A DNA stretch of 43,740 nt from a virus: IMG/VR virus record IMGVR_UViG_3300025809_000035, positions 1 to 43,740 of that record, one strand, 5' to 3'. Of the stretch, positions 12,685 through 31,219 are shown in pieces. Made by a program: the position numbers and the translations under genes. The notes under the pieces are model-generated. The model made no database searches. It was given only the letters and a program-made list of their open reading frames with translations, and was not told the DNA's origin. Each line of letters opens with the position of its first letter. The first letter of the stretch is position 1.

Positions 12685-15600
12685 TTATATATTCATGTCG
12701 GGTATCTTGCCTTGAGCAATACCTTTTATCATGTACATAGGTATACCAGCAGCTTTCATACTTTTAAGTATTTCTATTTTTGGTGTTCCTAAGTATATTG
12801 CTCCTTTGTACATATTTATAAGCTCTCCGTATATTTCTTTTTGAGATGCATTTACTTTCATGTACTCAGATTTAACATCTTCGCGAGTAACTCCTTCTTT
12901 TTTCTGAACAAAATTCCTTTTAACTTTTGTGTATGCTTTTTTATTTTCAGCAGCCTGATCTTTTATCTTGTAAGATATAAACATAGCTTGCTTTGGAATA
13001 TCTATTTTCCTTGGCTTGAATCCAGTCATCTGACCAATGGCTTCTTTTACAGCTGACTCATCTTTCTTAAAGTATGCATCGTCTATTCTCATTGCAGATG
13101 TATAGGTCCCTGGAGCTATAAGCTTACCAAACTCTTCCATGAACCTAAGGGTACTATCACCTAAACTAAACTTCTTGTTAGAGTAATCATTAATAACTCC
13201 ACCCATTTTACCAATAGACGCTAATATCATGTCTTGCTCGAAGAATGGAGACGCTATTTCGCTTAACGCTTTAATAGACGAATCTAACATGTTTTCTCCA
13301 GACATTGCAGCATTTACTGCTTGAGATAAAGCACCGTATGGATCAGAAGCACTCATGCTTATGTACGAAAACTTACCATCCTTAGGTTGATCATATATAA
13401 GTACACTAGAGTTTTTATCCCACTCAGGCATAAACATTCTAGCATACTTCATTGAATCTTCTTCTTGATCTTCTTCTGAGTTTCCTATGCTTGATAATCC
13501 AAAAAGAGCAGGTAATAAAGTAGCTGTAGCAGATACTGCTAATATTCCTTTCATTCTTTCCACTCCTATATCTCTAGTCGCTGGATCTTGCATTTCCCTA
13601 ATTGCTTGATCAACTGTGTTATAAGCAGTTCTTATTGCTTCAGCGTGGAATGAGATAAAAGTACCAGCAATAGGCAGAGCCTTTAATCCTTTAACTAACC
13701 CACCAACTCTACCGTAGTTAGGAATGTTGTTCTTTATTATCTCAGCAGCTATGTCATTTATCTCTTGTTGTTGACTACTGTCTAGCTTGCTGTATTCTTT
13801 ACCAAATTTAGACTTAGCGTATCTCTTCTTCTCTACTTCATATCCTAATATTTTAGAAAAGTCGTCAGTAGTTTGATACGCTGTTATTAAAGCTTTATCT
13901 ATCTTCTTAGCGTTCCCCCAGGCGTGTTCAGCATAATATCTTAGCTTGTTCTCATCTGTTTCTGCTAGTCTTTTTATCATAGCATCTTCAAATGTCTCGC
14001 CCTTGTTCATCATGCTTTTTATTTCGCTAACAACAACACTGCTTCCGATTATTCCAGACTTCAAGTACTCATCCATCTTTGCGTTTAAGTCTGCATCATT
14101 GTTTCCTTTGATGTCGTTATTTAAAGTCTTAAAAGCAGTTTTAAAAGATTGGAAATCAGTTACATATCCATTTGCTATAAGCACTGGTACAATACCTATA
14201 ACGTTTTTGGCTTGTGTTCCAATAGAATATATTGTCTTCATTTTCTTAACAAAACCAATTCCTTTTAAGTATCCTTCGTAAGGTTTTTGCAGAAACTCTA
14301 ATGGTCCAGTGAACTTAAATCCTGTTTGCCCTTCTAATGCTTTCTTTATTTCTGGAGTTGTATAGTATCCATTAAGTGGATTGTATTGCTCTGAACCTTC
14401 TGGAGCTATTAGTTCAGTTGCATTCCCTGTTTTTTCTTTAAAGAAAAATATGCCTTCACCTTTATCCCTCATTTTATTTAGGAACATTTGGTTGGCAACC
14501 ATACTTTCTATTTTATTTACAGATTGTATGTAGTTGAATGCTGGATCACCATACTCACCCATAAGAGCTCTTATCTCTGCTGGTATATCTTTCTTTCTTT
14601 TTAGTGACTTTAAATTCTTAGATCCTGTTTTAGCTGCTGAAATAAAAGCATTAGACTCATCCTTTTTAAGAATGTTTTGTATTGCTGCATCTACTTTTTT
14701 GTTAAGTATTGTGTTAACGTCTACTCCTGTTTTTATAGACTCTTCCTCAGCAATTTTTTTGTAGTCTTTTTTCAACCTCATCTTAGCTTTATCTATCACA
14801 GACTGAGGTATTGATTCGGCATAGTTTTCTTTATCAAACAACTTGTAAGATCTATTCAGATACGATCCGATATTTTTTCTTATGTTCTCAATACTCTCTT
14901 TACTATCTATTGCTCCAGACTCTATCAACTTAGAAGATAAGTCATCTACATGATTCCTCATGTCAGAAGCTATTTCCATTAAGTCACTAGGAAGTTCTAC
15001 ATTTAAATCACCTCTAATATAAGCATCAATCTTTCCTACAACTTCTTTTAATTCTTTGTCGTTATACTTATTTAATTTTCTTTCTAGAAGTCTTATGTTG
15101 TTTCTTGCAACTTTAACTTCAGAGTCTATCATTCCTTGAAGAACTTCCTTAGCTATCATCATAGACTTAGGTAGAAAACCTCTTGGCGATAACGCCATTC
15201 TATAAGCTTTATTTATTGTATTTGCTAAAGGGTTTTTACCTTCTACATATACGCCATCTTTAGCTTCACCTTCTCTTCTATATTCTTCTTTATAGTTTTG
15301 TAGTAAATCGTAAGAAGTATCAGGATTGTAACCTTGCTCTTTAAGAGTTTCTAATATTGTAGTATCAGATACGCCAAGCTTTAACAAAGACTTAATAGTT
15401 TTAATAGCATCAAAGTCAACTCCTGATTTCTGAAGCTTACTTTTTATGTTAGAAGCATTTAGTTTAAGCCCTTGTGCAGACACTCCAGATGAAGATGGGT
15501 ATATGTTTTGTTCTCTATTTTTATCTACTATCTGATTTGTTTCAGGGTCCTCAAACATCTCATTCCAGTTGAATCTATCTCTTAATATGTGAAGTTTTAC

Positions 15601-18600
15601 GTCTCCGTCTACAGCTTTAATAGCTTTTGGATAAGACTCATGTTCTGTTGCTTCTACTGCTTCTACTTTAGAATTCAATTCAAGTATAGCATACACTTGG
15701 CCTCCTCTGTTTCTGTCTACTCCATCTTTTAATATTGGTTCTGTAAACATTTCAGACATTGCCTGAATTATATTTGCCTTAGATATACTTTTCTTACCAG
15801 TTTTACTTACTCCTTTAAAGTATTGGTTTTGTATACCCACACTAAACAAGTCTGCAAACTGATCTGTAGCTTTAGCATCTTGTTTAATTACATCTGCTAT
15901 GTTGGATATTAATGATTGAGCAAATAGTTTTCTGTCAGCGAAAGAGCTATTCTCAGCTCCTAGTTTCGTTTTTATATCAGATAAAGTTTCTTTTATATCT
16001 TTACTAACTCTCGTCTTTAGACCTAGGCCAACTATTTTAGTTCCTCCATTAGCTTTCTTAACAGTCATGGTTTGATTGGCTGCTTTAACAATTGATTTGT
16101 TGAAGTCAGCTTTATTAAGCTTAAACTTTCTGTCTATTGCTTTTGAAGTAAAGAAATCTAATACCGCATTTGACATTGTAGTACTAGACAATAATTTATC
16201 AGAAGGCGCAGATGTAAGCGCCATAAGTATCTTTCCATTATTCTGATCGTACACTTTGTTTAAGTCGGCTGCCATTTTCTCGGCAGCACTAGCAGTACTT
16301 GCCCAGAAGTATCCTTTATCATGGAACTTTATAGGGTAGTACATACCACCTTTACCTTCCACAATTGTCTCACCATCTTTAGTTATCTCTCCAGAGAAAG
16401 CTGCATCTGGTTGGTGTAAAAATATATATGAACCGTCAAATTCTGTTGCGCTTCTATCTTTAGTTATAAATCCATTATCTACTAACGCTTGAAATGCTTC
16501 GCTGTTTTTGTCATATACGAACTCTAGTCCACTAGCTACGTCTTTAAAGTTTGCTTGGAATCTATTAGACATCTTTCCTCCTATCGTAGCTCTCCTTTCT
16601 AGTATAGCTACATCCTCAGATGATATTGTCTTCCCAGTTCTTACCTTATTAGATAAGGTGTTCATAAATTCAACAGCTTCTCTGTCTGTGAACTCCTTAA
16701 GACCAAGTTTGGTTTGGATGTATTGTAATAAGTTTCTAACTGTAAGTTTAGATGGAGCATCAAGCTTAGGGAATCCACTAGCTAGTACACCAAACATCTC
16801 AGCAAGTTTTTCCTCACTTTGAATGTTTGCGTCATAGTTTGCGGAGAATGTTTTTAAGTAAGCCTTAAGTTCGGCTGGAGCCTTACTCTCAACTGCCTTA
16901 AGCAGTGACTCAACTCTCTTAGCAACCTCACTGTCGCTTTTAAGTTTATTAAGCATTAAAGCATGGAATGCTTCGTGAGCTATTGTCTGCTCATTAGCTG
17001 TGCTAGAATTTATATGTATTGTATTGGTCTCTGGTAAAAAAGCACCTCTAGAATCTTTGTTTCCTATTACTTGTAAATAGGATTCTTCTGTGTCGTGTAT
17101 TATTACTTGAACATCAGGTATTATAGATGATAACGCTTGTAAAGCTTTATTTTTAACTGTAGTAAAATCTATTTTTCTTGTTGGCTCGACTGTTGGCTCT
17201 GCTTCTGGTTCAGCTGTTGGATCCTGCTGAGGTACTTCAGTTGCTTCTGCTTCGGTAGGCTCTGTAGTTTCTGTAAATTCGTTTTGGAATTCTGCATCGT
17301 TCTCTAATTGTTCGTTTATAAATTGTGCCTGCTCAGGGCTTGTTGCCTTGTCAAGTAGTATTTGGTACCCAACATCTACAGCTGTCTGTCCCTTAAACAT
17401 AACAGGCTTCCCTGTTTCATCTTTTATGCTAACCTCTGTTATGTTGTTGTCTGCGTCGTAAACAATACCATCTGTAGGTAAATCACTTTGTATTGTATAA
17501 GCTTTGTCTCCTACAACAATTTTTCCTTCTGGATTAACTGATACGTCACTAACAGCAGAATCTATTCCTAGTTCACTTGTTGTCTTAGAAGACACCTCTT
17601 CAACGTTACCTAGTTCAGTTATATTTCCATTTGCTTCTTCAACTACTAATTGCTGTCCTTCAACGTATAAGTCCCCAATTATTGGGGTCTCTAATTTTGC
17701 TCCTGCTAATTCAAATAATGTAACGGGTCTATTAATAACATCAGCAACTGTTTGAGTAGGACCTGATGATTTTTCTTCTGATACAGGAGATTCTTCTTTT
17801 GTCATTTTACCGTCAACGATAGACATGGTGGCATTATCGTTATCAACGGTTATAGACATTCCAGATAAATCTTCTTTTGAAGTTTCTTCTATTGTTTTTG
17901 TAAATTCTTCCTTTGTTAATTCTTTTCCGTCTATTACGTACTTAGGTTTAGGAGGGCTTGCTATGTTTCCGAGTTTCTCGTTTATAGCATTTATAGCTTC
18001 CATTTGAGTCTTAACTAAAGCTGGATCTTTTCCAGCGACAAGTTTTTCTAGATCTCTTTTCTCCCTAAGTAAATTAACTACTTCTTTCCTTGTTTCTCCT
18101 TCGTAGTTTAATCCATCTAATTCTTTGTTAAACGAAGCAACCTCATCGAAGTTATTTAATGTCTCCTCTGCCTTTTCTTTTGTTATCTTTCCTTTAGCTA
18201 CTTTTTGTTGCAATTGAAAGTCTAAGAAAGCTCTACCGGTTTTATCTGCTAAAGCAAATTGGGTGTCATCAATCTCACCCATATTATCTTTATCGTAAGC
18301 TTCTGTTAGGTCGTTGTATTCACTATCAACAAGCTTAGCTTCTATCCTTTTCTTTAATGCATTTTGCTTTAACACTTTTACTCCTTGTGTTGCTCCACTT
18401 AATGGTCCTGTAGCAGCCATACCAATAAGGAATGTATCTATAAACTCAGTTAACGACCCCTCAAAAGCTTTGTTGTCTCCAAGTATAAGTGCATCAGCTG
18501 CTTTTTGAGCTAACAATGTAGCGTCTTCAGATAGACCCTCTGCACCAAGATCTTTGGCAAATGCCTTAAAGAAATCCTTAGTGCCTTCTACTACTCCACC

Positions 18601-19491
18601 ATCAGGAACTCCCCTGAATGATTTTATTAGCTTACTACCTATCTTTTTCGTAACAGCCTCCATTAATCCTTCTGCAACACCATACACAGCTGCATCTCCA
18701 ATTACTTTTCCGCTCAAGTCAGCTCCTTGTCTTTGTAGTTCACCGCTTCTTCCAGCGGCTGATCCAACAGCTATTGAGGCTAACCCAACATAAGGTATCA
18801 TTGCCTGAATGATTGATGGTATAGATCCAACAGCCTCAGACGCTAGTCTACCAGCTCCTCTAAGAATATTTGATGGGTCAGAAACATCTATTAAGTCTTC
18901 ACCAATAGATTGGTCAAACTTCTTCATCGTCTCTGTTATGAGCTCAGATCTCTGGCTGTACTCGTTAGATATTTTACTACCCTCAGCGGCTATTGCTAGA
19001 CCTGGAGAAAGAAAAGCAGCTGACTGCATCCTTAATTGAAACGCTTGGTCTCGTTGAGTAGCGGTAAGTGTGTTATACTGTTCCAGCTCCTCATCAGACA
19101 TTACAGCTGTTATAATCGCTTCGTCTATATATTGAGGTATTCTTGAAAAATTACCTAAGGCAGTGAGACCACTAGCCTTAAACTTTTTAGTCATCTCCCA
19201 ATCATCCTCTTCAGGAGTAAAATCAGTTGTCCCTTGAGAGACCAAAGAACCATCCACGGAAGGTAATTCCGAATCGTCTTTTTTTTTTAAACCTATTTTT
19301 TCTGAAAACGAATTGTAAGGCACCTCTTCCGTGAAAGTGGTGTCTTTAGATCCAATCCAATCGTACATGCTTTTTGCATAGTCTTCATTAAGCATTTTTT
19401 GCTTAAATGATTCTACATCTACGTCTTCTTTGAATGTCGAGTCTTGGCTGTCAATCCATGAATATAGGTCTGCTAAGTATTCTTCGTTCAT
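12685..19491 (-). CDS. Giant polyvalent virion protein with a zincin motif, 2268 aa
   Basis: The N-terminus holds two copies of a roughly 35-residue motif (LYSWIDSQDSTFKEDV and MYDWIGSKDTTFTEEV, both followed by a Phe-containing helix). Residues about 210-290 are hydrophobic and Gly/Ala-rich. Residues 690-780 are acidic and Thr/Glu/Pro-rich. A metalloprotease-like HEAFH motif lies at about 838-842, preceded by TIHINSSTANEQTIA. Long helical regions follow. The C-terminal part contains YISMSASDPYGALSQAVNAA, which resembles LPD38-type polyvalent-protein domains. Such very large multi-domain proteins in podoviruses are packaged and ejected into the host with the DNA. Its place at the end of the virion operon, after the gp14-like gene, fits that role. 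Stop TAA 12685-12687; start ATG overlaps the upstream stop (ATGA). Confidence 0.8.
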   Translation of the reverse strand: MNEEYLADLYSWIDSQDSTFKEDVDVESFKQKMLNEDYAKSMYDWIGSKDTTFTEEVPYNSFSEKIGLKKKDDSELPSVDGSLVSQGTTDFTPEEDDWEMTKKFKASGLTALGNFSRIPQYIDEAIITAVMSDEELEQYNTLTATQRDQAFQLRMQSAAFLSPGLAIAAEGSKISNEYSQRSELITETMKKFDQSIGEDLIDVSDPSNILRGAGRLASEAVGSIPSIIQAMIPYVGLASIAVGSAAGRSGELQRQGADLSGKVIGDAAVYGVAEGLMEAVTKKIGSKLIKSFRGVPDGGVVEGTKDFFKAFAKDLGAEGLSEDATLLAQKAADALILGDNKAFEGSLTEFIDTFLIGMAATGPLSGATQGVKVLKQNALKKRIEAKLVDSEYNDLTEAYDKDNMGEIDDTQFALADKTGRAFLDFQLQQKVAKGKITKEKAEETLNNFDEVASFNKELDGLNYEGETRKEVVNLLREKRDLEKLVAGKDPALVKTQMEAINAINEKLGNIASPPKPKYVIDGKELTKEEFTKTIEETSKEDLSGMSITVDNDNATMSIVDGKMTKEESPVSEEKSSGPTQTVADVINRPVTLFELAGAKLETPIIGDLYVEGQQLVVEEANGNITELGNVEEVSSKTTSELGIDSAVSDVSVNPEGKIVVGDKAYTIQSDLPTDGIVYDADNNITEVSIKDETGKPVMFKGQTAVDVGYQILLDKATSPEQAQFINEQLENDAEFQNEFTETTEPTEAEATEVPQQDPTAEPEAEPTVEPTRKIDFTTVKNKALQALSSIIPDVQVIIHDTEESYLQVIGNKDSRGAFLPETNTIHINSSTANEQTIAHEAFHALMLNKLKSDSEVAKRVESLLKAVESKAPAELKAYLKTFSANYDANIQSEEKLAEMFGVLASGFPKLDAPSKLTVRNLLQYIQTKLGLKEFTDREAVEFMNTLSNKVRTGKTISSEDVAILERRATIGGKMSNRFQANFKDVASGLEFVYDKNSEAFQALVDNGFITKDRSATEFDGSYIFLHQPDAAFSGEITKDGETIVEGKGGMYYPIKFHDKGYFWASTASAAEKMAADLNKVYDQNNGKILMALTSAPSDKLLSSTTMSNAVLDFFTSKAIDRKFKLNKADFNKSIVKAANQTMTVKKANGGTKIVGLGLKTRVSKDIKETLSDIKTKLGAENSSFADRKLFAQSLISNIADVIKQDAKATDQFADLFSVGIQNQYFKGVSKTGKKSISKANIIQAMSEMFTEPILKDGVDRNRGGQVYAILELNSKVEAVEATEHESYPKAIKAVDGDVKLHILRDRFNWNEMFEDPETNQIVDKNREQNIYPSSSGVSAQGLKLNASNIKSKLQKSGVDFDAIKTIKSLLKLGVSDTTILETLKEQGYNPDTSYDLLQNYKEEYRREGEAKDGVYVEGKNPLANTINKAYRMALSPRGFLPKSMMIAKEVLQGMIDSEVKVARNNIRLLERKLNKYNDKELKEVVGKIDAYIRGDLNVELPSDLMEIASDMRNHVDDLSSKLIESGAIDSKESIENIRKNIGSYLNRSYKLFDKENYAESIPQSVIDKAKMRLKKDYKKIAEEESIKTGVDVNTILNKKVDAAIQNILKKDESNAFISAAKTGSKNLKSLKRKKDIPAEIRALMGEYGDPAFNYIQSVNKIESMVANQMFLNKMRDKGEGIFFFKEKTGNATELIAPEGSEQYNPLNGYYTTPEIKKALEGQTGFKFTGPLEFLQKPYEGYLKGIGFVKKMKTIYSIGTQAKNVIGIVPVLIANGYVTDFQSFKTAFKTLNNDIKGNNDADLNAKMDEYLKSGIIGSSVVVSEIKSMMNKGETFEDAMIKRLAETDENKLRYYAEHAWGNAKKIDKALITAYQTTDDFSKILGYEVEKKRYAKSKFGKEYSKLDSSQQQEINDIAAEIIKNNIPNYGRVGGLVKGLKALPIAGTFISFHAEAIRTAYNTVDQAIREMQDPATRDIGVERMKGILAVSATATLLPALFGLSSIGNSEEDQEEDSMKYARMFMPEWDKNSSVLIYDQPKDGKFSYISMSASDPYGALSQAVNAAMSGENMLDSSIKALSEIASPFFEQDMILASIGKMGGVINDYSNKKFSLGDSTLRFMEEFGKLIAPGTYTSAMRIDDAYFKKDESAVKEAIGQMTGFKPRKIDIPKQAMFISYKIKDQAAENKKAYTKVKRNFVQKKEGVTREDVKSEYMKVNASQKEIYGELINMYKGAIYLGTPKIEILKSMKAAGIPMYMIKGIAQGKIPDMNI

Positions 19492-20816
19492 CCTCTTGGA
19501 GCTTTATTATTTGTAGTCTTTTTTAAGTTTTCAGCATTAGTCCCTAAGTTTACAGCCTCTCTTACTAGAACTAAATCCTCTGGCTTAGATATTTTTATGG
19601 TAACTGTTTTTACTCCATCTTCCTCATCTAATTGTCCTAGTGGACCTTTTGGTGAGTTGTTGTAAGATATAGTTACCGTGTCAGGGCCTCCATCTTTAGA
19701 CTCTGCGTATCCAGTTATTATAACATCGTTATATTGACTCCCTCCTAGCATTACGGATGGAATCGCTTTTTGTTTTGAAACATCTACTGGATATATTTTT
19801 TGAGTCTCAGTCTCAGTAAATTTTGGAGGTTTATCTTCTTTAGGAGTTGCTGCTTGTCTTTGAATAGCTAACCTCTCGTCAGCTCTCCTAGCCTCATCGC
19901 CCTTCATCTCATCTTTTATTTGATTACCGTATTTAGAAATTGCTGTTTCTTTGAGCTTCTCAATAAGTTGCTTCTTAACGTCCTGCTCATTCTTTATCTT
20001 AAGATCTCCGTCTAGTACGTAATCAATGTTTTCTATACCAGCATTTACAGCTGCATTATATAAAACCTCACCGTCTAAATTATCTACTGTATCCTTAAAT
20101 GCTTTTGCTTGATTTTCTGTTATCTTGTTGTCTTTGGTGAATGGAGATTGAATCTGAACTCCACCTACGTTGTAAGTGTTAAGAGCACTATTCTTCATCA
20201 CGTCGTCAACAAATTTCTCAGGCTGTATATTTTGTGAGAAAGTCATATAAGAAGGAAACTTAGAGAATGGAGACGATACCATCTTGCCGTTTTCTTTAGA
20301 TAAAAACATATAGTTTCCTCTAGAATCTTTAGCAACAGAAACACCGTTACCTATCATGTTGTCTATCCTATTCAACTTTAACTCATCGGCAGGACTAATA
20401 TCTTCTTTGCTTCTAATTTGATTAGCATACTCAGCTAATCCACTCATGCTTTCTGATACTTTTTTAGATTGATTCCTGGCCATCATCATTTCTCTAGTGG
20501 CCTCTGACTGAGTAATCTCTCCGTTAGTTAGTCTTCTCTGTATGTTCTCAGCAGTATCTATGATAAGGTTCTTAGTTTCTAAACCAAGTTGATCTGCGTT
20601 CTCAAGCCCTGTTAGCTCAAACGTAGAATATATTTCGTCTCCGTATTCTTTTATTAGTTCTGCTTTTTGAGCTTCAAGCTCTTTAGCTTTGGCTTCGTCT
20701 TCTAATCTTTTCTTTTCAACTACTGTGTTTACACCTCTAGTTATGCTTCCGTAATCAAATACGGGAGCCTGAGAGCTGTACTGTAAACCTTCGTATTGAG
20801 CTGTATTCTGTGCCAT
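19488..20816 (-). CDS. Virion-associated protein, coiled-coil rich, 442 aa
   Basis: From ATG 20816 the protein begins MAQNTAQYEGLQYSSQAP. A longer frame from 20843 would add nine residues and overlap the upstream stop, so the later ATG, 4 nt after that stop, is preferred. Residues 35-160 are a long charged helix region (KRLEDEAKAKELEAQKAELI), and the rest is mixed with a Pro/Lys linker (TPKEDKPPKF). It lies between a gp14-like internal protein and the giant protein, the position of an internal core or ejection protein (compare T7 gp15), which is inference. Its stop overlaps the start of the giant gene. Confidence 0.65.
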   Translation of the reverse strand: MAQNTAQYEGLQYSSQAPVFDYGSITRGVNTVVEKKRLEDEAKAKELEAQKAELIKEYGDEIYSTFELTGLENADQLGLETKNLIIDTAENIQRRLTNGEITQSEATREMMMARNQSKKVSESMSGLAEYANQIRSKEDISPADELKLNRIDNMIGNGVSVAKDSRGNYMFLSKENGKMVSSPFSKFPSYMTFSQNIQPEKFVDDVMKNSALNTYNVGGVQIQSPFTKDNKITENQAKAFKDTVDNLDGEVLYNAAVNAGIENIDYVLDGDLKIKNEQDVKKQLIEKLKETAISKYGNQIKDEMKGDEARRADERLAIQRQAATPKEDKPPKFTETETQKIYPVDVSKQKAIPSVMLGGSQYNDVIITGYAESKDGGPDTVTISYNNSPKGPLGQLDEEDGVKTVTIKISKPEDLVLVREAVNLGTNAENLKKTTNNKAPRG

Positions 20817-20820
20817 ATTA

Positions 20821-21579
20821 TTAATTGAAAGGGTTATCGCCAAATAAATTAGGTTGCTCGAATTTATTAGGGTTCTTTACAGCGTAAGGATTTACGGCAG
20901 TAAAACTACTTGGCATTTGAAAAGAGCTAGCCTTAGATTGCATGTTGGCAGATATTGGAGCAGATAAACTTGCTATAGCTGCATTACCAGTATTCATAGC
21001 TGAGCTACCCGCACTAGTTATTGCGGCAGCTCCTGGAGCAGCTGCTGCTCCTCCTAGCTGTCCTCCTAAACCAGCAGATAGAACAGACATACCAGCCTCA
21101 GCTATACCTGCAATCCCTTGTTGTTGTTGAGCTTTACCGGCAGCTATCTCCTGACCTAAACCAGCTATTGCTCCAGATTCTCTTTGCTCTTGAATTTGTC
21201 TTATTCTTTGTTCGTCTTGAGCGCCCATTTGATCTATAGAAACTTGTTGTTGGTCCAGTCCAGCTCCTATTTGAGCTTGCATAGCTTGATCCTGTGCTGC
21301 CACATTGCCTAAGCCACCAACTAAGCCTCTTACACCACCTGATCTAAGGGCGTCAACGCTTGACTCAAATCTAGATTGAGCTTGCTTTGTCTGAAGTTCA
21401 GCGCCTAGTGTAGACACTCTCATTCCTTCAGTTACGTTCTTAAGTTCTTGTCTTTTGAAGTTGTTTAAAGCTTTCTGAGCGTCTTTAGCTCTCTTAGCTC
21501 CTTTAATCATGTTACCCGCACTACCAGCAGCTGTTAGTGCAGCTCCGGCTAGTATTGCAGTTCCAGTTGCTATTGCCAT
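20821..21579 (-). CDS. Internal virion protein, T7 gp14-like
   Basis: The 252-residue protein has a Gly/Ala-rich hydrophobic N-terminus (ATGTAILAGAALTAAGSAGN), a charged helix, a Gln-rich helical centre (QDQAMQAQIGAGLDQQQVSI) and a second Gly/Ala hydrophobic segment (residues about 155-190). Podovirus internal core proteins of the gp14 class, which insert in the outer membrane during ejection, have this composition and size. It starts 10 nt within the GNAT-like gene and precedes the two other candidate ejection proteins. The call is by composition and position, not by sequence motif. Confidence 0.65.
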   Translation of the reverse strand: MAIATGTAILAGAALTAAGSAGNMIKGAKRAKDAQKALNNFKRQELKNVTEGMRVSTLGAELQTKQAQSRFESSVDALRSGGVRGLVGGLGNVAAQDQAMQAQIGAGLDQQQVSIDQMGAQDEQRIRQIQEQRESGAIAGLGQEIAAGKAQQQQGIAGIAEAGMSVLSAGLGGQLGGAAAAPGAAAITSAGSSAMNTGNAAIASLSAPISANMQSKASSFQMPSSFTAVNPYAVKNPNKFEQPNLFGDNPFN

Positions 21580-22766: not shown

Positions 22767-23672
22767 TTAGTACAGTGTTTCCTTGATTAATTGGTAGTAA
22801 TTATAGCAGCACCTAGTGTTTTTAATGTCTAAATCATTGGGTGGAAACTTAGAGGCGTACTTCCCTTTGTAAAACATACCATCTGAATCACTAGTAGCTC
22901 CAGCGTTATGGTAGATTGCATACTTATCCCAATCTATTATAGTGTTGGTTGCCCACGAAAAATCAAGCTTACTGCTAACACGAGTTGCTATCCCCTGTTT
23001 CCAAGCCACCCACAGCATAGCCCACATCTCAGCGGTCCATATTTGTATCTCATGGTGTGATGGGTTTTTTTGTTTTTTCTTTTTACTTATCTCAGATATT
23101 TTTATATACAATTCGTGAGACATATCTACCACGTCTTTCCAGAAAGAAGCCTTTACTTTTTTATACAAGTACTGGGCGCCTCCGGAGTTTTCTTGGTTTG
23201 ACTTAATTAAATCTTCAGATACACCTCCAATCTCTAGCATAGGCTCTAGTATATCTCTACCTTTTGATAGTATGTAATTATATCCTATATAACTAACCGT
23301 GTCGCTTACGTACCACACATCGTCATTAAGAAGTTCTGTTAGATCTAATGGTCTTGTTAAGCATATATCAGCATCTACAAGAAATATGTCCTCATCCTCC
23401 ATATATGGATTATTAAGGTAGTGCTTGTAAAGCATGTGTTGTTTTATTGATGGGATGTATCCCTTATAATCTCTACTATCTTCATAAAAGAAAAAGCTAA
23501 CACTATAGTGTTTCTTTATTAAATCCTGAAACTCTTTACTTATTTTGCCTTGTCTAGAACACAAAACGTGTATGTCTTTAGGGCTTACATTGTTTTTTAT
23601 TAAGCTACTAACTAAGACATCTATTTGCCATGCAAAGTAAATCACAGCTGGTTGGGCACATATATACTTCAT
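22767..23672 (-). CDS. Glycosyltransferase-like protein (GT-A fold), 301 aa
   Basis: From ATG 23672 the protein starts MKYICAQPAVIYFAWQIDVL. A TTG start at 23681 would add three residues. The Asp-x-Asp-containing block EDIFLVDADICLTRPLDLTE (about residues 90-110) is the metal and nucleotide-sugar site of GT-A enzymes. HHEIQIWTAEMWAMLW and YAIYHNAGATSD are conserved-looking C-terminal blocks. Whether it modifies a virion protein, the host surface or DNA is not shown. It lies in the virion operon close to two Thr-rich fibre genes, which are possible acceptors. A terminator hairpin overlaps the end of the preceding gene. Confidence 0.65.
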   Translation of the reverse strand: MKYICAQPAVIYFAWQIDVLVSSLIKNNVSPKDIHVLCSRQGKISKEFQDLIKKHYSVSFFFYEDSRDYKGYIPSIKQHMLYKHYLNNPYMEDEDIFLVDADICLTRPLDLTELLNDDVWYVSDTVSYIGYNYILSKGRDILEPMLEIGGVSEDLIKSNQENSGGAQYLYKKVKASFWKDVVDMSHELYIKISEISKKKKQKNPSHHEIQIWTAEMWAMLWVAWKQGIATRVSSKLDFSWATNTIIDWDKYAIYHNAGATSDSDGMFYKGKYASKFPPNDLDIKNTRCCYNYYQLIKETLY

Positions 23673-23682
23673 AGTAAACAAA

Positions 23683-24045: not shown

Positions 24046-25872
24046 TTACAGACCTCCGCCTCCAGGAGGCTCACAGAATCCATCACAAGCAGTTCCGGAG
24101 TCATTACTAACTAACGATGAGTTGTACTGAGGTACGGCAACCGGTGGGTTACTTGTCACGTCCCATACATCATTACTAACAGTGTTAGCACATACATAGT
24201 ATGTAAGCTCTGATCCGTTAGGAGAGGATAGCATTCCATTAAAGGTTGCTGTTGTAAAGACCCCTAGATAGTCAACGTAAGCTATACCATATCTATCCTG
24301 ATCTAAGCTAAATACAGATGAGTCGTATGTTACTTCATGACATGTTGGATTTAATGTGGTAGTTGTTGTCGTTGTTGTAGTTGTTGTCGTTGGTAATGGT
24401 ACATTACCTCCACACTGCACACCTGGCCCTGTTACTGGGTAGTTAGCACCAACTATAGATCTAGCGCAGAATTGAACGGTATCTACTCCACTGTTCCAGT
24501 AGTAAAGAATATCTTGCTCTACCCCATCACAGTCAATGTAAGTTATCTCTAAGCTTTCTCCAGACTGAGTTGGTACAGCTGCTTCATACTCATAACAAGG
24601 AGTCTCCGTTGTAGGAGTTTCCGTTGTAGGAGTTTCTGTAGTGCTGTTAGCTGCGTTACAAGCTGCACAATCGTTATATCTTGTCCAAGATGTAATGTCG
24701 GTATCTAAACCACTAGTAGTAGTCTCTGTTCCTACTTGGTAACATGTTCCGTTGTTTTCTACAGATGAACCAGGTGCTAAGTTTTCGCTAGAGTTATTTA
24801 CACCAACAAATGTTACCCCTGGATCACTACATAAAGACATATTATAGTACCTTACATCAGTAGGGCATCCTTGTTGTCCTGTATATGTTACAGCGCCAAC
24901 TGAAGGTATATTTGTGTCGCTTGTAGATCTAAATACTGTGTAAGTATTACCATTAGCAGTAACTCTGTCTTCAGTTCCTAATGCAATATCTTCTATTGTA
25001 TCACCAGACCTAAAGTTTGTAGAACCAGTAGCGCAATCCCGTAATTGATAATATCCAACTCCATTAGTAATAGTTGTTGCATCAGCTCCCTCAAAATAAA
25101 CTCCTTCTTGTATAACAAAAGCTCTGTAAGTGTATTGCGTTTCAGGGGTTAAATTAATAATTCGTTCTGTATATTGACCAATTCCAGTACCATCTACTGT
25201 TACTACATTGTCTGATAGCGTTGGAGAATCAGTTCCCTCTGCCCATATGAATCCTTTATCTGTAAAGTTAGGATCTCCAGCTACAGTAACATTACCTGTA
25301 AATACAATGAAATCCGTCCCCCAATCAGAAGGTGATTGAGTTACAACTAAAGGATCTGTTCCTTGAGCAGCCTCACAAATGGCTCTAGTAGTAATAGTTC
25401 CTCCAGATGTAACCTGGAATGAGTAACCTACACCATCTGTAAAGTACTTGCCTTGCCCATTAAATATAGTTGTAGCTTCAGAATCTGAGTATAAAACGGT
25501 AGCTGAAATCCAAGCGCCTGATGCTGAGGTTTCGTCCTGATCATTGTATACTGTTATTCCTGTATCCGCACCAGTACAAGCTTCATCAGCGGTATTAAAA
25601 CCTTGAGAAGAAGAGTTACCGTATATTACAAAAGATGTAATAGGGTTAGGCTGTGCTTCTGTAGTAGTCGTCGTAGTCGTACTAGTTGTACTAGTTGTAC
25701 TAGTCGTGCTAGTGCTTGTAGTAGTAGTCTCTCCCGTAGGACAGTCAACCAAATCCTCGTAAGGAGCTATGTAATCCGGATCACCTGGGTCATTGACTTT
25801 CGTCTCACCGGTGGCAACTCCGTCAACATACTTCCTAAGAGTAAGTACTGTTTTTATTCCTGTGTTTGCCAT
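24046..25872 (-). CDS. Tail fibre-type protein with Thr-rich linkers, 608 aa
   Basis: After an N-terminal adaptor-like part (MANTGIKTVLTLRKYVDGVA...) comes a Thr/Ser linker (residues about 47-70), then beta domains. One of these resembles a fibronectin III/Ig-like module typical of Bacteroidota (TDKGFIWAEGTDSPTLSDNV ... LTPETQYTYRAFVIQEG). A TTETP triplet, a run of Thr (about 497-508), and a roughly 100-residue C-terminal domain from LNPTCHEVTYDSSVFSLDQD to the glycine-rich end PPGGGG follow. That domain is about 75% identical by eye to the C-terminus of the 1768-residue protein. Probable role: receptor binding. It has its own TATCTTTG-like site upstream. Confidence 0.75.
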   Translation of the reverse strand: MANTGIKTVLTLRKYVDGVATGETKVNDPGDPDYIAPYEDLVDCPTGETTTTSTSTTSTTSTTSTTTTTTTEAQPNPITSFVIYGNSSSQGFNTADEACTGADTGITVYNDQDETSASGAWISATVLYSDSEATTIFNGQGKYFTDGVGYSFQVTSGGTITTRAICEAAQGTDPLVVTQSPSDWGTDFIVFTGNVTVAGDPNFTDKGFIWAEGTDSPTLSDNVVTVDGTGIGQYTERIINLTPETQYTYRAFVIQEGVYFEGADATTITNGVGYYQLRDCATGSTNFRSGDTIEDIALGTEDRVTANGNTYTVFRSTSDTNIPSVGAVTYTGQQGCPTDVRYYNMSLCSDPGVTFVGVNNSSENLAPGSSVENNGTCYQVGTETTTSGLDTDITSWTRYNDCAACNAANSTTETPTTETPTTETPCYEYEAAVPTQSGESLEITYIDCDGVEQDILYYWNSGVDTVQFCARSIVGANYPVTGPGVQCGGNVPLPTTTTTTTTTTTTLNPTCHEVTYDSSVFSLDQDRYGIAYVDYLGVFTTATFNGMLSSPNGSELTYYVCANTVSNDVWDVTSNPPVAVPQYNSSLVSNDSGTACDGFCEPPGGGGL

Positions 25873-25912: not shown

Positions 25913-28900
25913 TTAAAAACCGCCGCCGCCAGGTGGGGAGCAGAATCCATCGCATGATTCTCCTGAGCTAGACCTACTTAATGATGAGTTGTACTGAGGT
26001 ACAGCAACATTGTTGTTTACATCCCATACATCTTGACTTACTGTATCAGCACATACGTAGTATATAAGTTCTGATCCATTTACAGACGCTAGCATATCAT
26101 TAAATCTTGCTGTCACAAAGTTTCCTTGGTAGTCAACATAAGCTATACCATATCTGTTTTGATCTAAGCCATAGACAGATGAATCGTATGTTACTTCATG
26201 ACATGTTGGATTTAACGCAACTGTTGTTGTAGTTGTAGTAGGCGCCGCTGTCGTAGTTGTAGTCGTAGTAGGAGCTGCTGTAGTAGTTGTAGTTGTAGTA
26301 GGTGCCGCTGTTGTAGTTGTAGTTGTAGTAGGAGCCGCTGTTGTAGTTGTAGTTGTAGTAGGAGCCGCTGTTGTAGTTGTAGTTGTAGTAGGAGCCGCTG
26401 TTGTAGTTGTAGTCGTAGTCGGCGCTTCATATCCACAGCTAGAACTATTTGTCTCAATCAAGTCTGTATAAGTTCCTCCACTTCCATCAGCGTACTCTCC
26501 AAATAAATCATATCCAAAGCAGAATGTACTTAATAGTGTGCCCGCTGGATAAACATACCCACAGTCTGTACTGTTATATTCTATAACTTGGTTATATGAT
26601 CCACCACTACCGTTGGCATATGTCCCCATTTTAGTAGTTCCATCACAGTATGTACTTAATAGTGTACCAGCTGGATCTACATATCCACAATCAACGCTAT
26701 TAAATTCAATAGCATTAGTATATGATCCTCCGCCGCCATCAGCATACGTTCCCATCTTAGTGGTTCCATCACAGTATGTACTTAATAATGTACCCGCTGG
26801 TATCTGAGTGGTAGTCGTCGTAGTAGTCGGAGCTGCCGTAGTAGGTGCTGCTGTAGTCGTCGTTGTAGTAGGTACTACTGGCGAACAATCAAAATCAGAA
26901 TTACAAGTATTAGTATTAGGCACTGTATTCATTCCTTCTAAACCTACAAATGCATTTCCACTAGGTCCATACTTATACATGTTACTTGATGATCCTGTTT
27001 GGCAGAAGGCAAAGTAAGTTGATCCATTTTGCTCAATACCGAAATAAGTGTTTAAATTAACACTTGTCTCTCCGCTTCCACAGCTATTGTATATGTAATA
27101 CAAATCTAAACCACCGCTAGTTAATTGTGTGTTTAACACATCCACTGTAACACAGTTACAAGGTTGCTCTGTAGTTGTAGTTGTAGTAGGTGCTGCTGTA
27201 CTAGTTGTAGTCGTGGTAGGTGCTGCTGTACTAGTTGTAGTCGTGGTAGGTGCTGCTGTACTAGTTGTAGTCGTAGTAGGTGCTGCTGTACTAGTTGTAG
27301 TCGTAGTAGGTGCCGCTGTACTAGTTGTAGTTGTAGTAGGTGCTGCTGTACTAGTTGTAGTCGTGGTAGGTGCCGCTGTACTAGTTGTAGTTGTAGTAGG
27401 AGCTGCTGTACTAGTTGTAGTTGTAGTAGGTGCCGTTGCAGTGGTTGTAGTCGTAGTAGGTGCCGCTGTACTAGTTGTAGTCGTAGTAGGTGCCGCTGTA
27501 CTAGTTGTAGTTGTAGTAGGTGCCGCTGTACTAGTTGTAGTCGTAGTAGGTGCCGCTGTACTAGTTGTAGTTGTTCCTTCTATATTGCACTCATATGTAT
27601 CTTCAATCCATGTTACTGTAGGAGATGCTGTACTAGTTGTAGTTGTAGTAGGAGCCGCTGTACTAGTTGTAGTCGTAGTAGGTGCCGCTGTACTAGTTGT
27701 AGTTGTTCCTTCTATATTGCACTCATATGTATCTTCAATCCATGTTACTGTAGGAGATGCTGTACTAGTTGTAGTTGTTCCTTCTATATTACACTCATAT
27801 GTATCTTCAATCCATGTTACTGTAGGATCTTCTACGTTACACTCGTAAGTATCTTCATTCCATTCAATATATCCGCAAGAATAAGTGTCTTCTAACCATT
27901 CTATAGCGCAAGCGTTTATTGGAAGTTCTACATCAACAAAACATTGAGTTGTAGTTGTAGTTACATTGCTTGTTGTGGTTGTAGTTATATATTCTTCGCA
28001 CTCGTAAGTGTCCTCTACCCACTCTATATTTGGATTAGAGATACTAAGAACAAACTGATCGTTGTTTGGGTCAAAAGAAGAAACAATATTAGACCCTACA
28101 TATAAGTGGTCATTAAACCAGCTTATCATGCCGTATGTTGATATAGGAAATATTCCGTTATCAGTTAACCTAATTACAGATCCTCTTCTTTCATCGGCAA
28201 AGTATATATCTCCATTCCACTTAGTGGCAGCGTATATATTATTACTTATACCAAACTCTCCTTGGTAAGGAACTTCTTGTCCTAGTACGTTGTTGTTCTG
28301 GCTTACGTTCCCTGATCCATCTGCATTATATATGACACTCTTGCTGTAAAGAACTCTAGATACTCTGTTATTTTGTATAACAGTTAAGTCTCCATTCCTT
28401 GATATAATCTTAGCTATCTTTCCAAAACTTGGGTCTAAGTCTTTATAGTTTGCTGTAGATAAATTAAACTCGTTTACTCCGTTAAAAGATGTAGTAGATT
28501 CATATATGCCACTATAAGTTAGTGACGCTACCCTAGTTATTTCCTTATAATTATCTAAAGGCACAAGTGGTTTAGAGTCTAAAATCATTCTAGACTGGTT
28601 AAAACCATCTGCTATCTTTATTGACTCATAACCATTATACCACCCAAAAGCGTTGAAATGGTCTAAGTTTACCAATGCATTGGTTGTTCCGAAAACCTGA
28701 TTTACATCTCCTGAATGGTTTCCGTTAGATACACCATAAGTCTTAGGCAGTTCATAAAAAACTTCAGAGCTTGAGAATTTATAGTCTGTCTCAAATATAA
28801 TTGGGTTGTCAAGCTCTATTATTTTAAAGGTTACATCTACTCTAACCTTCCCTGATCCAGTGTAGTTTGATTCAGAAAGAATAGACATAAAAAGATCTCC

Positions 28901-31219
28901 AGAAGGATTTATAAATAGTCTTTCTCCTAAAACCTTATCTGGAGCTGTATCTAAATTACCTCTTCTAAAAAGAATCTCACTAGGATCTTTAGGATGACTC
29001 ATTTTAGAAAGAACATTATCTTCCCAGAACCATTCTTCTATGTTGTCATAGTTGGAACTAGAAACAAACCTTTGATATACATTTCCAGATATATTATCAA
29101 CATTAGGCTCTGACCTACTATCATTATACTCTATAGTTATTATAGCACCAGCCTTTATAGACTCAGACCCAACAGACTTACACTTAAAATTCATTATAGC
29201 TTTTCGACCAAAGCTATTTACATCTCCTCCTTCATTCCATTCAGTAGGCCTTGAAGCTGACTTTGCGTTAATAACCCATCTGTCACTTTCCGTATGACCG
29301 GTAGTCGAGCTAAAAGAAATAGACAAGCCATTAGAAAGAGTTGTTGATCCACTGATAACTATTCCAGCATCGTTGTTGTCATTCCATGGAGAATAAGAAT
29401 TTTCTTTACAATCCAGTTCTCTCCATCTAAACCTATCAGGGCTGCCTTCGCTTAGTATTTCTATTTCATATCTAGTATCTGTAGTGCTAGAATATGTGCC
29501 CGATACGCTAATATCATTTAATCCATCTCCATAAAAGACAGCGTCCTCTATGTAGGCTGCTGGACTGCCAAAATCATTTTTAGTTACATCAGTTCTAAAT
29601 GCATATCCATCGTAAAGAAATGTATCTACAGAGGTTTCATCTAACGCTATTTCCTCTGTGTCAACTTTTATATAATTACCAGCTTCTTGTATAGTATTTT
29701 TTTCAGAGTCATCTTCTAAAAAGTTTCTTGTTTTGCTTTCAGACTCTAATACTTTTACTTTTGTAGGTGTTTTTCTAATACCTGAAGTGTCAGATTTTAA
29801 AAACAAAAAGTCTCCTTCTTTTACTTTGTTTATGTCTTCGCCTTCTACTTTAATATACGCGTAAACACCCTCCCTATAAAATACAACAGGGGATATTACA
29901 TCATAATCGTTCCTGCTTTGTTTTATAAAAAACCTATAACCTTCAGCCCAGTCTGGGGCTTTTGAAGATATTTCTACGTTTAGAGTGTTCTTCTTGTCGC
30001 TATTAGTAATAGGGACATGTACACTGCTTCCTTCACTTGTAAAAGGAGTGGTCATCCTACCTTTTCCGTCAGTATAAGAAATACCAACCTCATAATCCAT
30101 ATTTGTCTTAATGGTTTTATGAGGTATTCCTTTAGTTCCTGATGTAGAAGTATAAGACAAATCTAGTTTAGGAATTATACTAACACCACTGTTAGACATG
30201 TTGTAGTTCTCGGTATAGTTGCCAAAAACAACCCTGTTTCCTATTATCTCTAAAGTTTTAGCTTTCCTTGGTACGTTATCGTAAACTCTTCTTAGTTGAG
30301 ACTCTGGAAGTGCTTTATAGACTTTACTGTTAGTAAATGTGTATTCGTAAACCGCATTGTCGTTCCATCCTTTATCTTCTTTGTCTAGCTTCTCAACAAT
30401 ATAAGTAATATCATCTCCAGACTGTTTAGCAAGGATTTCTATTTTCTTTACATTTTTAGATCCAGTGTTGAACGATACAACTGCTTTGTTGTACTCATTC
30501 TCCATTGACTTATTAGTACCTGAATTGTAGTCATACCTAAACTCGTTAGGCATAAATGCAAACTCAGAAAACGGAGACACTGCACTAATCTCGTTGTTAT
30601 CATATATGTACCTATATGCAAAAGAGAAAAACTTAGTCTCTAGGTAATTCTCTTCTTTACTGTCTGTTTTTTGTAGTTCTATTAAAGGAGCTGTATATGG
30701 AGCTGGCTTTATTAGTGATACATCCTCAAAAGTAAATGTATTGTTTGCTAGTGCCTTGGCCGTATCAATCTCAAAGTACTTTGGTTCAGTAGCACCATCC
30801 GTTAAGAATAAGAAGTTTTTATTGTTCTCAGCATCGTTAAGGATAGACATGTCAACCATATTACTAGGTGTAAAACCTAGTTGGTTTAAATCTCCAGCCC
30901 TGTTGTCCGATATTATAACAGAAGCTTGCTCAGTATCTTTAGAGAATTCACATACAAAAGAACCGTTGTCAGATACTACACACCAGTAAATCTTGTTGGC
31001 GGCATCGTCCTCTACAGTACCAATGGTTTTTGCATTGCTACCAAAGTTTATTGAAGACATTTTAGCATTAGATAAAGCGTTTTCAACGGCCCCAACATCT
31101 GAACCATTAGAGTTTGCAACCCTAACATTCAATGCATGTCTATACTCTCCTTTTTGAATAAGTCTCTCATCGGAGTCCTTATTCATTTTTCCAGATGTGA
31201 ATACGTTCTTTAACTTCAT
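25913..31219 (-). CDS. Large tail protein with Thr/Ala/Pro minisatellites, 1768 aa
   Basis: Residues 1-1080 are beta-rich. The start MKLKNVFTSGKMNKDSDERL and the IYWCVVSDNGSFVCEFSKDT region resemble tail-stabilisation (muzzle-like) proteins of crAss-like and related podoviruses. A region with six W-x-E-D-T-Y-x-C motifs follows (about 1067-1215), then a Thr/Ser/Ala/Pro linker of 13 ten-residue units (about 1216-1350). After a further beta domain (1355-1440) come three roughly 39-residue repeats that begin PAGTLLST and end NS-x-x-CGY (about 1473-1595), a second Thr/Ala/Pro linker (about 1598-1667), and a C-terminal domain ending PPGGGGF shared with the 608-residue fibre. The gene thus seems to join a tail-hub protein to a fibre. 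It overlaps its upstream neighbour by TAATG. Confidence 0.75.
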   Translation of the reverse strand: MKLKNVFTSGKMNKDSDERLIQKGEYRHALNVRVANSNGSDVGAVENALSNAKMSSINFGSNAKTIGTVEDDAANKIYWCVVSDNGSFVCEFSKDTEQASVIISDNRAGDLNQLGFTPSNMVDMSILNDAENNKNFLFLTDGATEPKYFEIDTAKALANNTFTFEDVSLIKPAPYTAPLIELQKTDSKEENYLETKFFSFAYRYIYDNNEISAVSPFSEFAFMPNEFRYDYNSGTNKSMENEYNKAVVSFNTGSKNVKKIEILAKQSGDDITYIVEKLDKEDKGWNDNAVYEYTFTNSKVYKALPESQLRRVYDNVPRKAKTLEIIGNRVVFGNYTENYNMSNSGVSIIPKLDLSYTSTSGTKGIPHKTIKTNMDYEVGISYTDGKGRMTTPFTSEGSSVHVPITNSDKKNTLNVEISSKAPDWAEGYRFFIKQSRNDYDVISPVVFYREGVYAYIKVEGEDINKVKEGDFLFLKSDTSGIRKTPTKVKVLESESKTRNFLEDDSEKNTIQEAGNYIKVDTEEIALDETSVDTFLYDGYAFRTDVTKNDFGSPAAYIEDAVFYGDGLNDISVSGTYSSTTDTRYEIEILSEGSPDRFRWRELDCKENSYSPWNDNNDAGIVISGSTTLSNGLSISFSSTTGHTESDRWVINAKSASRPTEWNEGGDVNSFGRKAIMNFKCKSVGSESIKAGAIITIEYNDSRSEPNVDNISGNVYQRFVSSSNYDNIEEWFWEDNVLSKMSHPKDPSEILFRRGNLDTAPDKVLGERLFINPSGDLFMSILSESNYTGSGKVRVDVTFKIIELDNPIIFETDYKFSSSEVFYELPKTYGVSNGNHSGDVNQVFGTTNALVNLDHFNAFGWYNGYESIKIADGFNQSRMILDSKPLVPLDNYKEITRVASLTYSGIYESTTSFNGVNEFNLSTANYKDLDPSFGKIAKIISRNGDLTVIQNNRVSRVLYSKSVIYNADGSGNVSQNNNVLGQEVPYQGEFGISNNIYAATKWNGDIYFADERRGSVIRLTDNGIFPISTYGMISWFNDHLYVGSNIVSSFDPNNDQFVLSISNPNIEWVEDTYECEEYITTTTTSNVTTTTTQCFVDVELPINACAIEWLEDTYSCGYIEWNEDTYECNVEDPTVTWIEDTYECNIEGTTTTSTASPTVTWIEDTYECNIEGTTTTSTAAPTTTTTSTAAPTTTTTSTASPTVTWIEDTYECNIEGTTTTSTAAPTTTTTSTAAPTTTTTSTAAPTTTTTSTAAPTTTTTTATAPTTTTTSTAAPTTTTTSTAAPTTTTTSTAAPTTTTTSTAAPTTTTTSTAAPTTTTTSTAAPTTTTTSTAAPTTTTTSTAAPTTTTTTEQPCNCVTVDVLNTQLTSGGLDLYYIYNSCGSGETSVNLNTYFGIEQNGSTYFAFCQTGSSSNMYKYGPSGNAFVGLEGMNTVPNTNTCNSDFDCSPVVPTTTTTTAAPTTAAPTTTTTTTQIPAGTLLSTYCDGTTKMGTYADGGGGSYTNAIEFNSVDCGYVDPAGTLLSTYCDGTTKMGTYANGSGGSYNQVIEYNSTDCGYVYPAGTLLSTFCFGYDLFGEYADGSGGTYTDLIETNSSSCGYEAPTTTTTTTAAPTTTTTTTAAPTTTTTTTAAPTTTTTTTAAPTTTTTTTAAPTTTTTTTAAPTTTTTTVALNPTCHEVTYDSSVYGLDQNRYGIAYVDYQGNFVTARFNDMLASVNGSELIYYVCADTVSQDVWDVNNNVAVPQYNSSLSRSSSGESCDGFCSPPGGGGF
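26218..26424. repeat. Thr/Ala/Pro minisatellite, 30-bp period
   Basis: About seven 30-bp units encode TTTTTTTAAP in the minus-strand tail gene. Units differ mostly at third codon positions. Confidence 0.85.
27180..27570. repeat. Thr/Ser/Ala/Pro minisatellite, 13 units of 30 bp
   Basis: Thirteen 30-bp units encode TTTTTSTAAP with one variant unit (TTTTTTATAP). The units contain an ACTAGT core and differ by silent changes, so copy number could change by recombination or slippage without shifting the frame. Three further partial units lie at 27625-27710 between W-x-E-D-T-Y-x-C motifs. Confidence 0.85.

Follow-up and report, generated by a model that had tools for sequence, protein, structure and literature searches.

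The window analysed here, 43,740 nucleotides of the IMG/VR virus record IMGVR_UViG_3300025809_000035, carries on its minus strand (12685..19491) the gene of a giant polyvalent/ejection-type protein of 2268 residues. Polyvalent proteins as defined by Iyer et al. are an already known kind, and the giant contains two elements that are new: a compact domain, called domain X here, and a recurrent N-terminal leader built of a repeat followed by KKK. The giant is probably a phage polyvalent ejection protein that is packaged in the head and ejected with the DNA, its zincin-like metallopeptidase domain most likely serving self-processing. An earlier note on this DNA placed a protein of this size and type at 12685-19491, and the gene is indeed a single intact open reading frame (ORF) of 2268 codons; what that note did not state is that it runs on the minus strand. 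A plus-strand reading of the same interval is ruled out by many stops. Orthologues of the giant are found in three related viral contigs, L027 (2440 residues), L029 (2480 residues) and L025 (2391 residues). Nucleotide identity to the L027 orthologue is 0.60, 0.69 and 0.36 at codon positions 1, 2 and 3, which indicates selection on the reading frame.

No part of the giant is better conserved or less well explained than domain X (about 370 residues, 978–1345; 15457..16560, minus strand), which was overlooked in the earlier note. It is 57–64% identical to its relatives, the other parts of which are mostly 20–48% identical. The exception is L025 (L025:5829-13001), an otherwise close orthologue with a normally conserved zincin and C-terminal module, in which domain X shows only 29% identity; the sequences suggest that the domain has been replaced or is changing fast there. 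Domain X is found at 65 loci in viral contigs; the count of non-redundant viral ORFs with it is 56. No family of Pfam, NCBIfam or PHROGs covers it, and a single pattern scan of GTDB species genomes, a limited test, found none. The most conserved residues fall in the motifs HxPDxAFSG, EGxGGMYYPIKFH, FWAST, KxxSSTT, DRK, YAxLE, HxSYP and LHILxDR. The AlphaFold model of the domain has an alpha+beta fold with a predicted local distance difference test (pLDDT) score of mostly 80–90. A Foldseek search with this model gives no significant match among solved folds, and uncharacterised phage proteins in BFVD match it significantly. A YTH-like fold for a part of domain X, which would bind modified nucleobases, was considered and dropped: several YTH entries of the PDB appear in the Foldseek output with E-values of about 1–3 and a probability of at most 0.15, and a profile test against one YTH sequence (identical to the YTHDF2 of the PDB) scored 22.3, the highest of 40 shuffles reaching 20.0, which we rejected as evidence. 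Domain X could, tentatively, represent a new family of injected effector or enzyme domains, specific to a set of phages that centres on those of Flavobacteriia. The zincin would set it free after entry, and the conserved residues would form an active or ligand site.

The zincin-like domain (residues 781–930; 16702..17151, minus strand) precedes domain X. Its active-site motif HEAFH occupies residues 839–843 (16963..16977, minus strand); the earlier note had the motif right and its position, given as about 838–842, off by one. Chance alone would give about 0.004 HExxH motifs in one protein with this composition. His839, Glu840 and His843 are kept in all 46 aligned zincin matches among relatives, and Glu894 (16810..16812, minus strand), which is predicted to be the third zinc ligand and lies further downstream on another helix (helix 121–139 of the model), is Glu in each of the 45 aligned matches that have a residue there. 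In the AlphaFold model of residues 768–1371 (mean pLDDT 73) a helix, strands (a three-stranded sheet is expected), the HExxH helix and the Glu helix follow each other in the expected order, with a pLDDT of about 75–82 as far as the HExxH helix, falling to about 60–70 at the Glu helix. This strand/HExxH-helix/Glu-helix arrangement is the one described for peptidases of polyvalent proteins (PMC5512222). By its sequence, the segment is a gluzincin-type zincin with an intact-looking site, and peptidase activity is predicted for it.

Membership of the zincin in Peptidase_M78 of Pfam (PF06114, IrrE/ImmA) was rejected at 15.8–16.4 bits against a curated cut-off of 22 (E-values of 0.012 against the library and 1.9e-4 in a single-genome search). 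A PDB profile search places IrrE chains on top, in register, with E-values of 0.29–0.35 that are below significance, and Foldseek with the model of residues 768–1371 returns the minigluzincin jannalysin (4jix; probability 0.57, TMt 0.44, E-value 1.2), which is not significant either. A homologous zincin is found in the N4-like virion RNA polymerase of Vibrio phage D505 (28.6–30% identity over about 97 residues, and profile matches). This polymerase and its counterpart in coliphage N4 (gp50) are, like the window giant, giant virion-associated proteins. They differ in that the window giant lacks a Pfam virion RNA polymerase domain; the D505 protein, taken as a control, has vRNAP_dom_2 at 2.4e-8.

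What the zincin does after packaging can be read in three ways. Iyer et al. propose autoprocessing for such zincins, with the processed DdrB of phage P1 as precedent, and regard host proteolysis as also possible (PMC5512222). The 2025 preprint on the N4 structure describes a polymerase with an HExxH-bearing C1 domain, an autoinhibitory C-terminal domain and a beads-on-a-string chain (PMC12633501). Based on these two sources, we would place self-processing ahead of a structural or regulatory zincin, and host proteolysis last. The second reading has perhaps one chance in several. Here the zincin fold would persist because it serves packaging, folding or regulation, and it would cleave little or nothing, as may hold for N4 C1. 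This reading draws on the homology of the window and N4-like zincins, on the packaging of the HExxH-bearing N4 polymerase in unprocessed form and the need for this region in encapsidation (PMC5512222), and on the autoinhibition of transcription by the N4 C-terminal domain (PMC12633501). Two facts speak against it: the three ligands and the catalytic Glu are present in all aligned matches that have residues there, beyond what a scaffold needs, and P1 DdrB is processed (PMC5512222). The third reading, that of the earlier note, has the injected zincin act as an effector against host proteins, cutting them early after entry, and appears rather unlikely. The conservation of the zincin ligands fits it, and such a role is kept as possible in the paper on polyvalent proteins (PMC5512222), but no host target is known. 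Furthermore, the zincin sits mid-chain between variable linkers and accompanies domain X in 40 of the 44 giants with a complete N-terminus, which fits a processing unit or a domain that works together with X.

Under the preferred reading, self-processing, the giant would be made as the third member of the small–medium–giant internal-protein cassette of a podovirus-type phage and packaged into the head, probably with the aid of its N-terminal leader and C-terminal module. It would then leave the particle by way of the short tail, either before the DNA or together with it. After ejection, the zincin (His839, Glu840, His843, Glu894) would most likely cut its own polypeptide in the poorly conserved linkers that flank the zincin–X unit. 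One of these is the acidic linker the earlier note had recognised, an E/P/T-rich segment at about residues 738–776 (17164..17280, minus strand); residues 701–800 contain 21 acidic versus 5 basic residues. The other is a variable linker at residues 1346–1435 (15187..15456, minus strand), whose identity to the orthologues, 20–38%, is among the lowest along the chain. Such cleavage would separate the envelope-spanning and LPD38-like parts from a fragment with domain X, and the freed fragment would act early in the cytoplasm.

Several observations weigh against this scenario. The Peptidase_M78 match stays under the Pfam cut-off. The AlphaFold model of the C-terminal module is poor (pLDDT 58.6), so the fold search with this module is uninformative. 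Two mutually similar, full-length giants, L074 and L088, carry X and the C-terminal module and lack the zincin, hence X does not always need it. The mass spectrometry evidence for presence in virions would apply to the window giant by analogy, as it comes from homologues and other phages, and we know of no cleavage product or site for any homologue here. In addition, the zincin could be structural, since the N4 polymerase is reported to be packaged unprocessed (PMC5512222) and its preparation gave no evidence of degradation (PMC12633501).

The C-terminal part of the giant is a helical module (C-module, residues 1436–2268; 12685..15186, minus strand) with homology to virion proteins. The PHROG family phrog_22602, annotated as virion structural protein, matches giant residues 1531–2106 (2.1e-26), and no family of Pfam or NCBIfam is above cut-off for the window giant. 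Searching viral contigs with the C-module as one protein gave no usable matches, and neither did an alignment search. The module contains a core at about residues 1862–2109 (13165..13908, minus strand), delineated by hhalign against the LPD38 alignment, that bears on the LPD38-like C-terminus claimed in the earlier note. The profile-profile comparison aligns 204 columns collinearly (probability 88%, E-value 3e-6), whereas shuffled and reversed controls give E-values of 0.4 or worse (0.41 for the best of 30 column shuffles). The Pfam LPD38 model (PF18857), however, matches neither the window giant nor 14 of its C-module relatives, and does match the positive control, JC1 gp69 (2.2e-34). The claim thus stands as remote kinship and not as Pfam membership. 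When the C-module is compared by hhalign with the C2 helical domain that follows the zincin in the N4 virion RNA polymerase, P is 0.035 across 177 columns, and the best among 20 shuffles gives 0.18; the order is suggestive and the similarity is not significant.

Zincin, domain X and C-module recombine independently among related phage giants. Among 44 non-redundant domain-X giants with a complete N-terminus, the HExxH zincin is present in 40 and the C-module in 13. The phage nearest by terminase, MW202828, combines the leader with a zincin and lacks X and the C-module, and L074 has X and the C-module without a zincin. Full-length domain-X giants that have no HExxH zincin are L074, L086 and L088. 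The C-module occurs without zincin or X in phi18:3 gp123, Y3 ORF31, HTVC027P, 023Pt_psg01 and C75C1; these five sequences were also used to train the C-module profile, so the blast values constitute the independent evidence.

The closest known systems each share a part of this architecture. Flavobacterium phage elemo gp18 (YP_010109083, a 3694-residue 'structural protein') has the zincin and X, with 52% identity over window residues 783–1351, and occupies the same late-gene slot. Unlike the window giant, it carries DUF3293 ahead of the zincin, and its C-terminal half is unrelated by blast or hidden Markov model. Cellulophaga phage phi18:3 gp123 (phrog_22602) has the C-module (24% identity over about 860 columns) and neither zincin nor domain X; it is a virion protein annotated from tandem mass spectrometry (MS/MS) and is preceded by small and medium virion proteins. 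In Pseudoalteromonas phage Y3, ORF31, annotated as ADP-ribosyltransferase, has the C-module (30% identity over 891 columns) and, in place of zincin and X, an ART-PolyVal-type domain that is below the Pfam cut-off. The end of ORF30 and the start of ORF31 of this phage (L005) share 319 identical residues; this may be a tandem duplication or an assembly artefact, and may split one longer protein. The DarB-like giants of the JC1/Bcep22 type with LPD38 (PF18857) resemble the window giant in their C-terminal LPD38 region, as seen by profile-profile comparison, and in being third in a small–medium–giant set. They carry other N-terminal enzymes, and the window giant does not reach the Pfam LPD38 model. 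One giant of this type, the LPD38-containing JC1 gp69, has been detected in virions: 51 unique peptides of it came from a purified preparation (PMC9144972).

In agreement with the polyvalent class (Iyer et al. 2017, PMC5512222), the giant is very large, combines disparate domains and is encoded beside late virion genes. Packaging and ejection of the window giant itself, which we infer, are supported by its gene position, by the MS/MS annotation of phi18:3 gp123 and gp120 and by the presence of JC1 gp69 in virions. The ejection-type, zincin-bearing class assigned in the earlier note agrees with this. A purely structural core or tail protein that stays inside the particle is improbable. The elemo and phi18:3 proteins are annotated as structural, but the giants contain enzyme-type domains and exchange modules, the gene is the third of an internal-protein cassette, and in Y3 the C-module is also joined to an ADP-ribosyltransferase-type domain.

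The N-terminal leader (residues 1–81; 19249..19491, minus strand) is a motif of about 32 residues in tandem (residues 1–66), followed by KKKDDSELPSVDG. The two copies of the motif, whose duplication the earlier note had detected, are YLADLYSWIDSQDSTFKEDVDVESF and YAKSMYDWIGSKDTTFTEEVPYNSF, and comparable tandem motifs are also found in relatives. In many relatives the duplicated motif is followed by KKK and then by acidic and Ser/Thr residues. A strict KKK..S/T pattern within the first 140 residues is present in 23 of 45 non-redundant full-length domain-X giants, compared to a mean of 1.6 and a maximum of 5 in shuffles and to 5 of 880 other windows; the copy of KKK in the window giant falls just short of the strict pattern. 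The repeat leader with KKK and Ser/Thr keeps its position in the window (19249-19491) and in L012, L013, L025, L029, L033, L035 and L072. That the leader is a packaging signal is a reasonable guess. It is followed by a region of hydrophobic and amphipathic stretches (residues 76–400; 18292..19266, minus strand), which is 41–45% identical in L027 and L029. Hydrophobic segments had been noted before in this protein; the best are residues 224–242, in this region, and 1982–2000, and with a Kyte–Doolittle value of about 1.7 both are borderline as membrane helices.

The giant is the third gene of one block (252, 451 and 2268 residues) in a late-gene module, with the terminase, portal and other head and virion protein genes on the same strand. 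The small partner, rich in Ala, Gly and Gln (252 residues; 20821..21579, minus strand), belongs to a virion protein family (phrog_13764, 1.5e-28); homologues of it are elemo gp20 and phi18:3 gp120, the latter with an MS/MS-based annotation. Orthologues of the medium partner (451 residues; 19488..20843, minus strand) immediately precede the giant in L027, L029 and L025. The window gene is listed with a TTG start; its alignments with the orthologues start from codon 10, an ATG, which puts the probable true start at about 20816. The gene order w242–w133–w252–w451–giant is kept in L029 and L025, and L027 retains w242, w252, w451 and the giant. Small–medium–giant sets are also found in elemo, phi18:3 and JC1. 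The T7 gp14–gp15–gp16-type cassette likewise places a small, a medium and a large internal-protein gene side by side; the likeness is one of layout. The nearest relatives of the terminase are from an uncultured podovirus from Manatee Spring (64%) and, next, from the elemo phages of Flavobacterium (43%), and all cultured relatives found in this comparison have hosts in the Flavobacteriia. The window is probably from a Bacteroidetes-type virus, a podovirus-type phage with relatives among the phages of Flavobacteriia.

Three further proteins are encoded nearby. A 304-residue protein (22767-23681) matches PHROG 4417, which has no function assigned there (6e-72), and is conserved near the cassette in several relatives. 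The proteins of 24046-25872 and 25913-31219 (minus strand) both contain low-complexity repeats rich in Thr, which in the second protein are very long, and have similar C-terminal ends (NPTCHEVTYDSSV...CDGFC.PPGGGG), which suggests a C-terminal domain that is common to the two or duplicated between them.

Giants that phages deliver along with the genome are at work ahead of all phage gene expression, and many domains in them have yet to be characterised. The giant described here is a real member of this known class, and domain X and the recurrent leader are the parts worth following up. The case isolates a compact, extremely conserved and uncatalogued domain that is paired with a zinc peptidase nearly always, in dozens of phages, and that occurs in a cultured phage group amenable to testing, Flavobacterium elemo. 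It would also help to decide whether the zincins of such giants cleave their own chain, act against the host or have a role in assembly only.

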